A stretch of DNA of 64,000 nt from Geovibrio thiophilus (GTDB lineage Bacteria; Chrysiogenota; Deferribacteres; Deferribacterales; Geovibrionaceae): the NCBI RefSeq assembly GCF_004087915.1, contig NZ_CP035108.1, positions 1,426,001 through 1,490,000 of the forward strand, in the 5' to 3' direction. Numbering within the stretch: position 1 is the stretch's first letter; the number at the start of each line of letters is the position of its first letter. Both the position numbers and the translations under genes were made by a program. This document shows, in pieces, positions 5,161 to 25,795 of the stretch. The notes below the pieces were generated by a model. It did no database searches. It was not told the origin of the DNA and saw nothing but the letters and a program-made list of their open reading frames with translations.

Positions 5161-6371
5161 TTCTCTGTATGGATATGGATGCTTTTTTCGCATCGGTTGA
5201 GCAGGCTTCAAATCCGGCTCTGCGCGGAAAGCCCATCGCCGTTGTCGGGGCGAAGGAGCGCACTGTTGTTGTGACTTCTTCATATGAAGCCCGCAAATAC
5301 GGTGTTAAAACAGGCATGAGCAAATACGAGGCGCTGAAGGTCTGTCCTTTTCTGACAGTTGTGGCGGCACGCAACAGAAAATATACTTATGTATCAAGGG
5401 AAATAACCGCATTCTTATATAAAATCACTCCCTGTGTGGAGCCTTACTCCATTGACGAGGCGTTTTTGGACATCAGCGGTACGGGAATAGCCCCGCAGGA
5501 CGCGGCTTATATGATAAAAAGCTTTGTTAAGAAAAACTTCGGCATAACCTGCTCAATAGGTGCGGGTTCTAACAAGTTCATAGCGAAGATGGCGAGCGGA
5601 GTTAAAAAACCGGACGGCTATTACTGCGTCGAAAATGATAAGGCGATCGAGTTTCTGGACAGGTTCCGCCTGAAGGACTTCTGGGGAATAGGGCGGAGGC
5701 TGGCGAAGCGCTTTGCGGATATGGGCGTTTTCACTCCTGCGGATCTGCGGGCAATGGGCAGGGAAAGGCTGGTGGAGATATTCGGCGTTAACGGGGGTTA
5801 CCTTTACGGGCTTGCCTGCGGAGAACATACTTCCGCTGTGAAGACAGAAGAGGAACCGATGAAATCCATCGGTCACAGCCTCACACTGCCGGAGAATATT
5901 TCAACAAGGGAAGAAGCGGCGGGCTATCTGCTTCAGCTTTCGGACATGGTGTCTTCAAGGGCGAGGCGGCTCAGGTATTCCGGCAAAACCATTACTGTAA
6001 CCATACGCTATCCCGATATGGGCACTTTTTCTCAGGCGCATACTATACCTTTTTTCACATCCGCCACACATCATATATATGCCGAAGCTCTGGAGGTTTT
6101 CGATAAGCTTTGGAACGGCAAGGATATAAGGCTTCTGGGAGTGTGCATCTCAAGCCTTGTGCCGGACTGCGTGACCCTTTACAATATAGAGGACAGCGGC
6201 AAAAACTGGGAAGGACTGTATTCGGTGATGGACGAGATCAACACTAAATACGGTGAACGCACTCTCCAGTTCGGTTCAGTGCTGAACTGCCGCCGCAAGG
6301 GTTCCAGCGTTATCTCCCCCGCTTGGCGTCCCTCCGGCGACAGGCATGTGAATATTATGGACGGGAATTGA
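5157..6371 (+). CDS. dinB: DNA polymerase IV, Y-family translesion polymerase
   Basis: A 404-residue Y-family polymerase for lesion bypass. The catalytic acidic residues are Asp6 and Asp8 (MILCMDMDAFFASVE) and Asp100-Glu101 (PYSIDEAFLD); the fingers contain VTSSYEARKYGVKTGM, and the thumb carries helix-hairpin-helix-like segments (GIGRRLAKRFADMGVFTP). The little-finger domain follows from about residue 240. A canonical C-terminal clamp-binding motif is not obvious; the protein ends GDRHVNIMDGN after ISPAWRP. It overlaps the upstream small ORF by 4 bp and is the last gene of the lexA cassette, so it is presumably induced by DNA damage when LexA is cleaved. Confidence 0.95.
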   Translation: MILCMDMDAFFASVEQASNPALRGKPIAVVGAKERTVVVTSSYEARKYGVKTGMSKYEALKVCPFLTVVAARNRKYTYVSREITAFLYKITPCVEPYSIDEAFLDISGTGIAPQDAAYMIKSFVKKNFGITCSIGAGSNKFIAKMASGVKKPDGYYCVENDKAIEFLDRFRLKDFWGIGRRLAKRFADMGVFTPADLRAMGRERLVEIFGVNGGYLYGLACGEHTSAVKTEEEPMKSIGHSLTLPENISTREEAAGYLLQLSDMVSSRARRLRYSGKTITVTIRYPDMGTFSQAHTIPFFTSATHHIYAEALEVFDKLWNGKDIRLLGVCISSLVPDCVTLYNIEDSGKNWEGLYSVMDEINTKYGERTLQFGSVLNCRRKGSSVISPAWRPSGDRHVNIMDGN

Positions 6372-6500
6372 TTCCGAAAAATTTTCTCCTCCCGTCCTTG
6401 CAATCCGCAAAATTCATATTATAATAATCTTCGTACCGGGCCCCTCTGGCATTTTGTCCCCGAAATGCGATGTCGGTATGTTCCGTTCGGAACCTTAATC

Positions 6501-7499
6501 ATGGGGCTGAGATGTTCTGTGAATACCTTACATGCGTTCCTTTTTTCCGATTTTCTTCACAAACCTGTGTGGATGTGGCTTGTTTTTCTGGCTGTTGTTT
6601 TGTTCCTTCTTATTCTTGATCTGGGTGTTTTCAACCGGAAGGATCATGAGATAGGCGTTAAGGAAAGCCTGTTGATGTCTGTGTTTTACATAGGCATAGG
6701 TCTTCTTTTCAGTCTCTGGGTAGGCAAAATTCTCGGGCAGGAAAAAGCCTTTGAATACCTCACCGGTTTTGTGGTGGAAAAGACCCTTGCTATGGACAAT
6801 ATATTTGTCATAGCGATGATTTTCTCCTACTTCCGCGTACCCCGAATATACCAGCACAGAGTGCTTTTCTGGGGTATTCTCGGAGTCATAGTCCTCCGTG
6901 GAATAATGATAGGTGTCGGCGCTAAGCTGGTCAGCGAGTTTGAGTGGGTGCTTTATCTGTTTGCCGCTTTCCTTATTTACTCCGGCGTGAAGATGCTGTT
7001 TAAGCAGGAGGACGAAGCTGATATAGGCGCAAATCCGGTGCTGAGGTTCATCCGCAAAAGGATAAGAGTGACAAGAGATTTTCACGGGCACAGCTTTCTT
7101 ATATACCGCACGAATCCCAGAACGGGGCATAAGTTTCTGTATGCTACGCCGCTTCTGATGGCGCTTATCTTCATTGAGATTGCCGACGTTATCTTCGCCG
7201 TTGATTCCGTGCCTGCGGTGTTCAGCATCACAACGGACGCTTACGTTGTTTACACCAGCAACATATTCGCTATTCTCGGCTTGAGGTCGCTTTATTTTGC
7301 CCTCTCAGCAGTGATTTCAAAGTTTCACTACCTCAAGTACGCTCTTTCAGTTGTGCTGATATTCATAGGCGCTAAGATTTTTGTTTCCGAGATGCTGCAT
7401 CTGGTGAAAATTCCTCCGGCAGTGAGTCTTGGTGTAACTCTTGCCATACTCGCTGCCGGTATTGTCGTGTCTCTGGTTAAGGGGGATAAAGAGGCTTAG
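6501..7499 (+). CDS. TerC/Alx-family integral membrane protein
   Basis: A TerC-family protein, a group of multi-helix inner-membrane proteins linked to manganese or other metal export and to tellurite or alkaline stress. Visible marks are VFFLLILDLGVFNRK-like helix 1 with conserved DLG, the EKTLAMDNIFVIAMIF segment with its acidic membrane residues, and FIEIADVIFAVDSVPAVFSI, the second acidic family signature. About nine helices are predicted. The start is uncertain: ATG at 6501 has GGAA upstream, but ATG 6465 and GTG 6519 are in frame. The 3' end overlaps the convergent phoR by 4 bp. TerC genes often follow a manganese riboswitch; I did not find its motifs here. Confidence 0.9.
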   Translation: MGLRCSVNTLHAFLFSDFLHKPVWMWLVFLAVVLFLLILDLGVFNRKDHEIGVKESLLMSVFYIGIGLLFSLWVGKILGQEKAFEYLTGFVVEKTLAMDNIFVIAMIFSYFRVPRIYQHRVLFWGILGVIVLRGIMIGVGAKLVSEFEWVLYLFAAFLIYSGVKMLFKQEDEADIGANPVLRFIRKRIRVTRDFHGHSFLIYRTNPRTGHKFLYATPLLMALIFIEIADVIFAVDSVPAVFSITTDAYVVYTSNIFAILGLRSLYFALSAVISKFHYLKYALSVVLIFIGAKIFVSEMLHLVKIPPAVSLGVTLAILAAGIVVSLVKGDKEA

Positions 7500-23110: not shown

Positions 23111-23929
23111 ATGAAAGGCATGAAAGCTGCCGTTTACGCTAACGATTCACTCCTGCTCGGCGAAGTTCTGGGCAGGATAGAAGAAGAACTTCCCCTGCTT
23201 GGGGTCAGCATCTACTCTTCTGAGGACTTTTTGCCCGCTATAGCAGCGGAAAAACCCGCTTACGAGGCGAAAAACATAAAAGACCTCGGGGATGAGGAAA
23301 TAGCAGTAATACTCGGCGATCCGGGAATCCATGCTGACACCTTACGGAAGCTGGACGGCTCAATAATAGACTGTACTGGGATTTTCAGCGGTTATGATGA
23401 TCTTTATGAAGTAGCTGAGCCCATTGAGTACATTGCCCGCCGTTTTCAGGGCGACAGATCTAAAGTGAGGGGCAGTCTGCTTATGCCTGCTGCTCTTTTC
23501 GGCAGAAATGCCATAGACGATCTGATCAGCCAGACGAGAAACCTATTCTCCTTCGGGCGGGACAATTCAAAAGTTTTTGAGGAGAGGGTAGCCTTTAATG
23601 TTCTTCTCGGCGGGGACGACAGCCGAAACATTATGAGCGGTTACAAAAAAAGGCTTGAAGAAACCACAGGGATGACCTTTAATTTCAGAATCATTCCGGT
23701 TTCCACCGTTTTCCTTGCGGATTTTTTCCTCGGGGATAATGTTGTTTTTGCGGAAGAAGGCGGCATGTTTTACGAGTTTACCGCCTCAAGTCTGGAAGAA
23801 GCCATGGAGAATGACGGCATCGGAGTTATAAAGCATCCGTCCGGAAGCATGATAAGCTTCACGGGCGATTATATAAAAGTTCTGACGGGTCAGATAGTAT
23901 CACACCTGAAAGAACTGACAGGAGAATAG
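23111..23929 (+). CDS. Aspartate-semialdehyde dehydrogenase-related protein (Usg-like), probably non-catalytic
   Basis: A 272-residue protein whose body resembles the C-terminal domain of Asd/Usg proteins: RGSLLMPAALFGRNAIDDLI (Asd-type helix after the active site), RVAFNVLLGGDDS, and FRIIPVSTVFLADFFLGDNV. The N-terminal part looks like a Rossmann fold without a GxxGxxG loop (VYANDSLLLGEVLGRIEE). The active-site Cys motif of true Asd enzymes is missing; the only cysteine is in IIDCTGIF. It is therefore probably not a dehydrogenase. It lies one base before the IscS/NifS homologue, in the same operon, which links it to Fe-S cluster assembly by position. The family call is by eye. Confidence 0.55.
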   Translation: MKGMKAAVYANDSLLLGEVLGRIEEELPLLGVSIYSSEDFLPAIAAEKPAYEAKNIKDLGDEEIAVILGDPGIHADTLRKLDGSIIDCTGIFSGYDDLYEVAEPIEYIARRFQGDRSKVRGSLLMPAALFGRNAIDDLISQTRNLFSFGRDNSKVFEERVAFNVLLGGDDSRNIMSGYKKRLEETTGMTFNFRIIPVSTVFLADFFLGDNVVFAEEGGMFYEFTASSLEEAMENDGIGVIKHPSGSMISFTGDYIKVLTGQIVSHLKELTGE

Positions 23930-23930
23930 G

Positions 23931-25112
23931 ATGGCTTTTTTAGATAATGTTGCCGGAACCAGACCCGACAGCAGAGTGGTTGATAAAATGCTCCCGTTTC
24001 TTACGGAGTATTACGGCAACCCCAGCGCCCACTTTTACCCCCTCGGCAGAGAATCCTTTGAGGCGGTGCAGGAGGCGAGAAGGCACGTTGCAGAGCTTAT
24101 CGGAGCGGAGGAAGAGGAAGTGATCTTCACCTCCTGCGGCACAGAGTCCAACAACCTTGCGGTAAAAGGGGTGCTTAAGCGTCAGGACAGCAAAAAACAC
24201 GTTATCATAAGCGAAATTGAGCATTTTTCCGTGCAGAACCCGCTTATATCCTTCATGAACGACGGCTATGAAATAACCAAGCTCAGAGTGGCGGAGAACG
24301 GTCTCATTAACCTTGAAGACCTCAAAAAAGCTATCCGCTCCGACACGGCTCTTGTTTCAGTGATGCTCGGCAACCCCGAGATCGGCACTGTTCAGCACAA
24401 TGAGGAAATAGGCAGAATTTGTAAGGAAAAAGGCGTTCTTTATCATATAGACGCAATTGCCGGAGCAGGGCATATCGAAGTTGACGTTAATAAGCTTAAC
24501 TGCGATCTTCTTTCTCTCTCCGCGCAGAATTTTTACGGACCCAGAGGAGCGGCGGCTCTTTACATAAGACAAGGGACAAAAGTCGCCTCTCTCATGCAGG
24601 GCGGACATCAGGAGTTCGGCTACAGAAGCGGCTCTGAAAATGTTGCGGCAATTGTGGGCATGGGCGAAGCGGCACGCATAGCCAAGGCGGAAATGCACCT
24701 ATACTCCGCTGAAATGAAAAGGCTCTCAAAACGGCTCTGGGAAGGGCTTGCAAATATGTTTGACTTTTTGCATTTTACGGGGCATCCTGAACGCCGGCTC
24801 CCCGGACACGTCAGTTTCTGGATAGAGTTTATAGAGGGTGAATCGCTTCTTATGTGGCTTGCTCTTAAGGGAATATATGCGGCGAGCGGCTCAGCCTGCT
24901 CATCAAACATCCTTGCCGAAGACGAGGAAGACCTTCAGGCCTCTCCTGTTCTGACGGCGGTTGGGGTACCGAGCGATATTTGCGCCGGATCAATTACTTT
25001 CTCCCTTTCCCGTTATACAACTGACGCGGAAGTGGACAAGGTTCTTGAGGAGCTGCCCGGTATCGTTACAAGACTTTGCGAAATGTCTCCCGCTTACAAC
25101 AAAGGAAACTAG
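23931..25112 (+). CDS. IscS/NifS-family cysteine desulfurase homologue lacking the PLP lysine
   Basis: A 393-residue class V aminotransferase-fold protein in the sulfur-donor position of a Fe-S operon. The family frame is clear: FLDNVAGTRP, YYGNPSAHF, TSCGTESNNLAVKG, SEIEHFSV with His98, HIDAIAGAG with Asp174, SLSAQNFYGPRGAAALY, GGHQEFGYRSGSENV, and the mobile-loop Cys323 in ASGSACSSN. In active enzymes the fourth motif reads SGHKxYGPKG, with Lys bound to PLP; here the pair is Gln199-Asn200 (AAT codon at 24528-24530). The Gln of the HxDAxQ motif is also changed (Ala177). The Cys and the IscU neighbour are kept. Archaeoglobus fulgidus IscS also lacks this Lys. Fold call is firm; classical activity is doubtful. 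Confidence 0.9.
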   Translation: MAFLDNVAGTRPDSRVVDKMLPFLTEYYGNPSAHFYPLGRESFEAVQEARRHVAELIGAEEEEVIFTSCGTESNNLAVKGVLKRQDSKKHVIISEIEHFSVQNPLISFMNDGYEITKLRVAENGLINLEDLKKAIRSDTALVSVMLGNPEIGTVQHNEEIGRICKEKGVLYHIDAIAGAGHIEVDVNKLNCDLLSLSAQNFYGPRGAAALYIRQGTKVASLMQGGHQEFGYRSGSENVAAIVGMGEAARIAKAEMHLYSAEMKRLSKRLWEGLANMFDFLHFTGHPERRLPGHVSFWIEFIEGESLLMWLALKGIYAASGSACSSNILAEDEEDLQASPVLTAVGVPSDICAGSITFSLSRYTTDAEVDKVLEELPGIVTRLCEMSPAYNKGN

Positions 25113-25121
25113 GAGGTTACA

Positions 25122-25568
25122 ATGGCAAAAGGACCATACAGCGAAAAAGTGATGGATCACTTTATGAATCCCCGCAACATGGGTGAAATAGAGGGCGCAA
25201 ACGCTGTCGGAGAAGTGGGAAACCCCGCCTGCGGCGATGTTATGAAAATTTTCCTCGACATAGATGACGCAGGAATAGTTAAAGACGTTAAATTCAAGAC
25301 ATTCGGCTGCGGAGCGGCTATAGCTTCCAGCTCAATGGCTACTGAACTTATAAAAGGTAAAAAGGTTGAGGAAATCCTCGCCCTTACAAATCAGGCGATA
25401 GTTGACGCACTCGGCGGTCTTCCCCCTGCGAAAATCCACTGCTCGGTAATGGCGGAGGAAGCTATTGAAGAAGCTCTTAAGGACTTCTACATCAGAAAAG
25501 GCGAAGACCCCGCAATAGTTCAGAAAATGAAAGAAGAGATAAAAAGCGCTGCAACCGGAGGAAATTAA
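25122..25568 (+). CDS. iscU: Fe-S cluster scaffold protein IscU/NifU-N type
   Basis: A 148-residue scaffold on which nascent Fe-S clusters are built. All three ligand cysteines are visible: Cys37 in GNPACGD (with Asp39), Cys63 in TFGCGAAIASSS and Cys107 in KIHCSVMAEEA. It starts PYSEKVMDHFMNPRNMG, the usual N-terminus, and has an AGGAGG site. It lies 9 bp after the IscS/NifS homologue and overlaps nfu by one base, so the three form one unit. The C-terminal extension beyond residue 125 is short and charged; there is no fused ferredoxin or Nfu domain. Confidence 0.95.
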   Translation: MAKGPYSEKVMDHFMNPRNMGEIEGANAVGEVGNPACGDVMKIFLDIDDAGIVKDVKFKTFGCGAAIASSSMATELIKGKKVEEILALTNQAIVDALGGLPPAKIHCSVMAEEAIEEALKDFYIRKGEDPAIVQKMKEEIKSAATGGN

Positions 25569-25795
25569 TGAGCTTGAAAGAAAGAGTTGAAGCAGTCCTT
25601 GAGCAGGTAAGACCCGCTCTTCAGGCGGACGGAGGCGATATAGAGCTTCTCGGTGTTACTGAAGACGGAATAGTTAAAGTACAGCTTACCGGCGCGTGCG
25701 GAAGCTGCCCCTTCAGCACTATGACGCTGAAGCATGCAGTTGAAGGCAGACTCAAAGACCAGATTCCCGAAGTTAAAGAAGTTCAGTCATTTTAA
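25568..25795 (+). CDS. Nfu-type Fe-S carrier protein
   Basis: A 75-residue single NifU C-terminal (Nfu) domain that carries a 4Fe-4S cluster to target proteins. The cluster-binding CxxC is Cys44-Cys47 in LTGACGSCPFSTMTLK, preceded by the signature VRPALQADGGDIELLG. It overlaps the scaffold gene by one base and is followed by a strong terminator, so it closes the Fe-S operon. Confidence 0.95.
   Translation: MSLKERVEAVLEQVRPALQADGGDIELLGVTEDGIVKVQLTGACGSCPFSTMTLKHAVEGRLKDQIPEVKEVQSF

Follow-up and report, generated by a model that had tools for sequence, protein, structure and literature searches.

A catalytic-lysine-less IscS homologue paired with the only IscU scaffold of Geovibrio thiophilus is conserved across its order

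The window analysed here is a 64,000-nucleotide stretch of the Geovibrio thiophilus chromosome (NZ_CP035108.1, positions 1,426,001 to 1,490,000), in which an ORF at 23931–25112 (+ strand) encodes a 393-aa homologue of the cysteine desulfurase IscS. A profile search identified the class V aminotransferase fold (PF00266, E 4e-74), and alignment to E. coli IscS placed Cys323 (TGC codon, 24897–24899, +) at the position of the mobile-loop cysteine (C328 in E. coli, C321 in Archaeoglobus fulgidus); fold and loop cysteine are those of a group I cysteine desulfurase (IscS/NifS). The Schiff-base Lys of that group is missing. Active cysteine desulfurases have the motif SGHKxYGPKG where the window protein reads SAQNFYGPRG, with Asn200 (AAT codon, 24528–24530, +) in place of K206 and Gln199 in place of H205; in addition, Ala177 replaces Q183 (motif HIDAIAG). 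Two further losses were revealed by the alignment, namely that of the substrate-carboxylate Arg, likewise expected of group I (R354 to T356), and that of N155 (P149). Retained, in E. coli numbering, were T76, H104, N154, D180, R240 and C328, and the motifs IEHFS and SGSACSSN are present. E. coli IscS and IscU sequences served as numbering references, with K206, C328, D180, Q183 and H104 agreeing with the published numbering. Activity of E. coli IscS requires K206, Q183, H104, D180 and C328, the alpha-carboxylate of the cysteine substrate is held by R354, and very low activity remains in K206A (PMC9978102). Since both the cofactor-bond site and the substrate site are gone, the loss of the Arg reinforces the observation that the Lys is missing.

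Directly after the Cys loop lies an acidic insertion, NILAEDEEDL (residues 326–335; 24906–24935, +), of a type conserved in the Deferribacterota proteins and missing in other Lys-less IscS; near the assembly site, it might possibly bind iron. An AlphaFold model of the window protein was similar to NFS1, E. coli IscS and A. fulgidus IscS in Foldseek (TM about 0.9). Because its Cys loop was poorly modelled (residues 321–352, pLDDT under 50), no pocket geometry was taken from it. The NCBIfam cut-offs were uninformative on function, as Lys-type paralogues also score below them.

Downstream of this gene are an IscU/NifU_N scaffold of 148 aa (25122–25568, +), canonical in having three Cys, an Asp and an N-terminal Tyr (within PYS), and an Nfu-type protein of 75 aa (25568–25795, +; PF01106). 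Upstream is a conserved gene for a 272-aa protein (23111–23929, +) with a weak aspartate-semialdehyde-dehydrogenase (ASADH)-like match (NCBIfam PRK05671, E 4.6e-4) and no family in a Pfam search; its product may be another pseudoenzyme encoded by the Fe-S operon. The operon, consisting of rodZ, the ASADH-like gene, the Lys-less iscS, iscU and nfu, is kept across the order, the ASADH-like gene being found in the majority of the orthologous operons and the IscS-IscU-Nfu order being the same throughout the Deferribacterales. The original prediction, made from the letters of the window, had named this ORF and its coordinates, Asn200, Gln199, Ala177, the retained Cys323, His98 and Asp174, and the intact IscU and Nfu neighbours, all of which were borne out by the sequence and the alignment to E. 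coli IscS; it had overlooked the loss of the substrate-carboxylate Arg (T356).

Orthologues of the window protein were found in 42 of the 46 genomes of the order and in two further genomes of the class. Conservation of the Asn in relatives, a check proposed with the prediction, was complete: all 44 orthologues have Asn at position 200, preceded by Gln in 42 and by Thr in two. In a 15-sequence alignment with a mean column identity of 73%, N200 was invariant, and H98, D174, T71 and R232 are invariant within the order. Between congeners, the Lys-less gene had a dN/dS of 0.06–0.08, close to the 0.05 of its Lys-type paralogue there (NG86), showing strong purifying selection on the Lys-less iscS. 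With 44 conserved orthologues, intact frames in nearly all of them and low dN/dS, a sequencing error or a decaying pseudogene as the source of Asn200 was ruled out; nothing favouring either was found, and we assign this explanation a negligible probability. The idea that the trait is peculiar to one bacterial operon had to be abandoned, as it is order-wide and recurs in many phyla.

The genome is a single contig of 2,997,552 bases (100% complete). A family search of it revealed one NifU_N protein, the IscU adjoining the Lys-less iscS, and no SufBD; one IscU without SufBD was likewise the rule in most of the order. As far as these families can show, Fe-S clusters built on a scaffold must therefore all be built on the window IscU. 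No frataxin that could act as iron helper was found in the genome by a search whose positive control matched only in E. coli. Also, the genome has no DsrE2 (PF13686) protein, by which DsrE2 was rejected as the sulfur donor there, and none scored over the cut-off in the order.

Two Lys-containing IscS paralogues, of the kind that the prediction had recommended looking for, are encoded elsewhere in the genome, where positions 352001–353137 hold a gene for a Lys-type IscS. One (SGHK) lies in a cysE-iscR-iscS cluster, the regulator of which shows the IscR arrangement C-x5-C-x5-C in its sequence, and the other (SAHK) lies beside mnmA; no physical link of a Lys-type IscS to the Lys-less operon was present within the window. 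With these two paralogues, the Lys-less protein was rejected as the cell's only desulfurase. Of the 25 Deferribacterota genomes read, all have Lys in the counterpart of the cysE-cluster iscS, which adjoins cysE in 22 and a similar Rrf2 regulator in 18. Since Lys-type paralogues exist, one of them in an order-conserved cysE-iscR-iscS cluster, cysteine-derived sulfur is available in trans. In two order members that have no Lys-less protein (G021 and G032, drafts of 88% and 78% completeness, respectively), a Lys-type iscS is located directly 5′ of iscU. We infer from this pattern that work done by a single IscS elsewhere may here be divided between the Lys-less protein and the Lys-type IscS linked to cysE. 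At two loci from two genomes of the same order (L057 and L058), a Lys-type iscS beside an iscR-like gene and iscU replaces the Lys-less one.

A scan of one genome per species detected Lys-less IscS in Desulfobacterota, Chloroflexota (Dehalococcoidia), Omnitrophota, Aminicenantes, Endomicrobia, Margulisbacteria and Smithella/Syntrophobacteraceae, the Lys being replaced by Q, V, A, L or P; most Lys-less genes adjoin iscU. In an alignment of 71 proteins, all 35 Lys-type sequences had the Lys, R354 and H205, and none of the 36 Lys-less sequences had any of the three. Q183 was gone in most Lys-less sequences, and C328, H104 and D180 were kept in all, the Cys in 36/36 Lys-less proteins. A Lys-type IscS was also found in 15 of the 17 Lys-less genomes of other phyla; the two exceptions are MAGs (G066, 1.3 Mb; G068, 1.7 Mb) for which completeness is not given, and three Endomicrobium genomes of 0.5–1.0 Mb retain both types.

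In nine loci from Chloroflexota, Desulfobacterota and Margulisbacteria (L086, L087, L089, L091, L097, L098, L099, L101 and L225), the Lys-less iscS/iscU genes are closely followed by a DsrE2-like gene; those products tested matched PF13686 with E about 1e-48 and the NCBIfam sulfur carrier DsrE2 below its cut-off. One of these, the Dehalococcoidia locus L098, has a Lys-type IscS, NadA (which we take it to be from its sequence), the Lys-less IscS, IscU and DsrE2 in one cluster. The IscU of this locus (6181–6672) carries an extra Cys-rich tail (CPFCEHEEGEADENSICGSCH) that the window IscU lacks. In Methylophilales/Nitrosomonadales (L116, L121, L123 and L137), two adjacent IscS genes, both with Lys, were observed 5′ of iscU. 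A very divergent Lys-less IscS-like protein (ANGFYGP, DGWGY) was observed in another phylum at L077, with no IscU found within that locus. For the origin of the trait, trees were built with the diagnostic columns omitted. The free tree needed two changes of the Lys label; a tree in which the Lys-less proteins, among them A. fulgidus IscS, were kept in one group scored 16.5 log units higher and was not rejected (p-AU 0.79). L077 is on a long branch. Judged from these trees, a single origin of the Lys loss, shared with A. fulgidus IscS, is possible.

The closest precedent, also cited in the original prediction and confirmed here from the letters of PDB 4eb5, is the IscS2 of A. fulgidus (PDB 4eb5, 4hvk, 4r5f). 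It reads SSNDIYGPKG and DATAS, having Asp199 for the Lys, Asn198 for the His, Ala176 for the Gln and Leu347 for the substrate Arg, with Cys321 kept. The window protein shares this pattern of losses and the kept Cys, its gene adjoins an IscU with three Cys, and the two proteins are 41% identical in the Foldseek alignment (TM-score about 0.9). The A. fulgidus protein works with IscU, as is proposed for the window protein, and differs in being archaeal, in having Asp rather than Asn and in having no acidic insertion after the Cys loop. It has no desulfurase activity, owing to the Asp at the Lys site, and one of its Cys is a ligand of the IscU cluster (PMC7585200; PMC9769115). Likened by its description, Methanosarcina acetivorans IscS1 is a second case: it is reported to lack the catalytic Lys and to belong to an iscSU cluster, with paralogues of the Lys type alongside (PMC7585200). 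Methanosarcina, however, has three iscSU clusters and SufBC, whereas in the window genome the Lys-less protein goes with the only IscU and SufBD is absent. E. coli IscS and human NFS1 (group I) share with the window protein the fold, the Cys loop and the IscU partner, but are active and have Lys206, His205, Gln183 and Arg354 (E. coli numbering). The IscS-IscU-DsrE2 operons of Chloroflexota, Desulfobacterota and Margulisbacteria show the same losses and an adjoining IscU, but mostly have Gln, or else Leu or Pro, at the Lys site, and are followed by DsrE2, with no Nfu directly after IscU.

In G. thiophilus the catalytic set is lost, the protein is paired with the sole IscU, SufBD is absent and Lys-type IscS co-occurs. 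We consider it probable that the window protein is a catalytically dead IscS kept as a platform for IscU and a donor of Cys, with sulfur delivered in trans. A former cysteine desulfurase would have lost PLP-dependent desulfuration and, presumably without activity of its own, would dock the cell's only IscU as its dedicated IscS-fold partner. Cys323, carried by the mobile loop, would serve transiently as the fourth ligand of the cluster being formed, by analogy with the A. fulgidus IscS-IscU structure; alternatively, it may act as a relay for incoming sulfur. The complex would receive its sulfur from elsewhere, and the Lys-type IscS of the cysE-iscR-iscS cluster, supplying it as persulfide or sulfide, is a more likely source than ambient sulfide by itself.

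The original prediction had instead proposed sulfide, in place of cysteine, as the supply of the scaffold. Such a supply is possible, but is not supported as stated, given two Lys-type IscS, one in a conserved cysE-iscR-iscS cluster. In this reading, the complex would take free sulfide directly and the cysteine desulfurases would serve only tRNA and other thio-cofactors. A. fulgidus IscS, which gives a Cys ligand without having desulfurase activity (PMC7585200), agrees with such a supply, as do SMS, a different minimal system able to use sulfide (PMC12192291), and the location of one Lys-type paralogue next to mnmA, which indicates a tRNA role. We nevertheless regard it as rather unlikely, because most of the order keeps a Lys-type IscS linked to iscR and cysE, an arrangement that couples cysteine desulfuration with Fe-S status, and the gene for the sulfur carrier DsrE2 in related Lys-less operons points to sulfane sulfur.

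The Lys-less subunit could also be a heterodimer or transpersulfidation partner of the Lys-type IscS, which would load Cys323 directly. IscS enzymes are dimers, the two types co-occur in nearly all genomes and both genes stand in one cluster in the Dehalococcoidia locus; yet at 39% identity between Lys-less and Lys-type proteins, and with genes mostly unlinked, such a partnership seems improbable. A different objection to the platform reading is that the PLP-contacting H104 and D180 are invariant, so that the pocket may bind PLP or another ligand non-covalently. The protein might then still be an enzyme, with non-covalent PLP or another substrate in a rebuilt pocket, for which the invariance of H98, D174, T71 and R232 within the order could speak. 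However, none of the Lys-less sequences has the substrate Arg and most lack the Gln, and no new catalytic residue is shared, since the Lys site varies by clade (N, Q, D, V, L, T, P); we hold a remaining enzymatic role to be very improbable.

In textbook ISC, cysteine desulfuration and cluster building are coupled in one IscS-IscU complex. Lys-less IscS is already known from two archaea. What appears to be new, judged from the open-licence literature, is that a Lys-less IscS is fixed throughout an order of bacteria and is paired there with the sole Fe-S scaffold, together with the joint loss of the substrate Arg and the Lys, the occurrence in many anaerobic phyla and the DsrE2-linked version. 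No description of Lys-less IscS in Deferribacterota or of the IscS-IscU-DsrE2 operon was found in that literature, which is weak evidence of novelty. Tentatively, and with slightly less than even confidence, we propose that these proteins form a family of dead IscS, widespread in bacteria and archaea and possibly of single origin, that serve as dedicated IscU partners; desulfurase and platform would then be separate in whole anaerobe lineages, and sulfur would be supplied in trans by a Lys-type IscS or, in the Chloroflexota and Desulfobacterota operons, by DsrE2. In many anaerobic phyla, Lys-less genes annotated as cysteine desulfurases are probably misnamed, and the window protein provides a bacterial case, besides A. 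fulgidus, in which the contribution of a non-catalytic IscS and the source of sulfur can be tested. In G. thiophilus and its whole order, cluster assembly and the extraction of sulfur from cysteine appear to be divided between two proteins.
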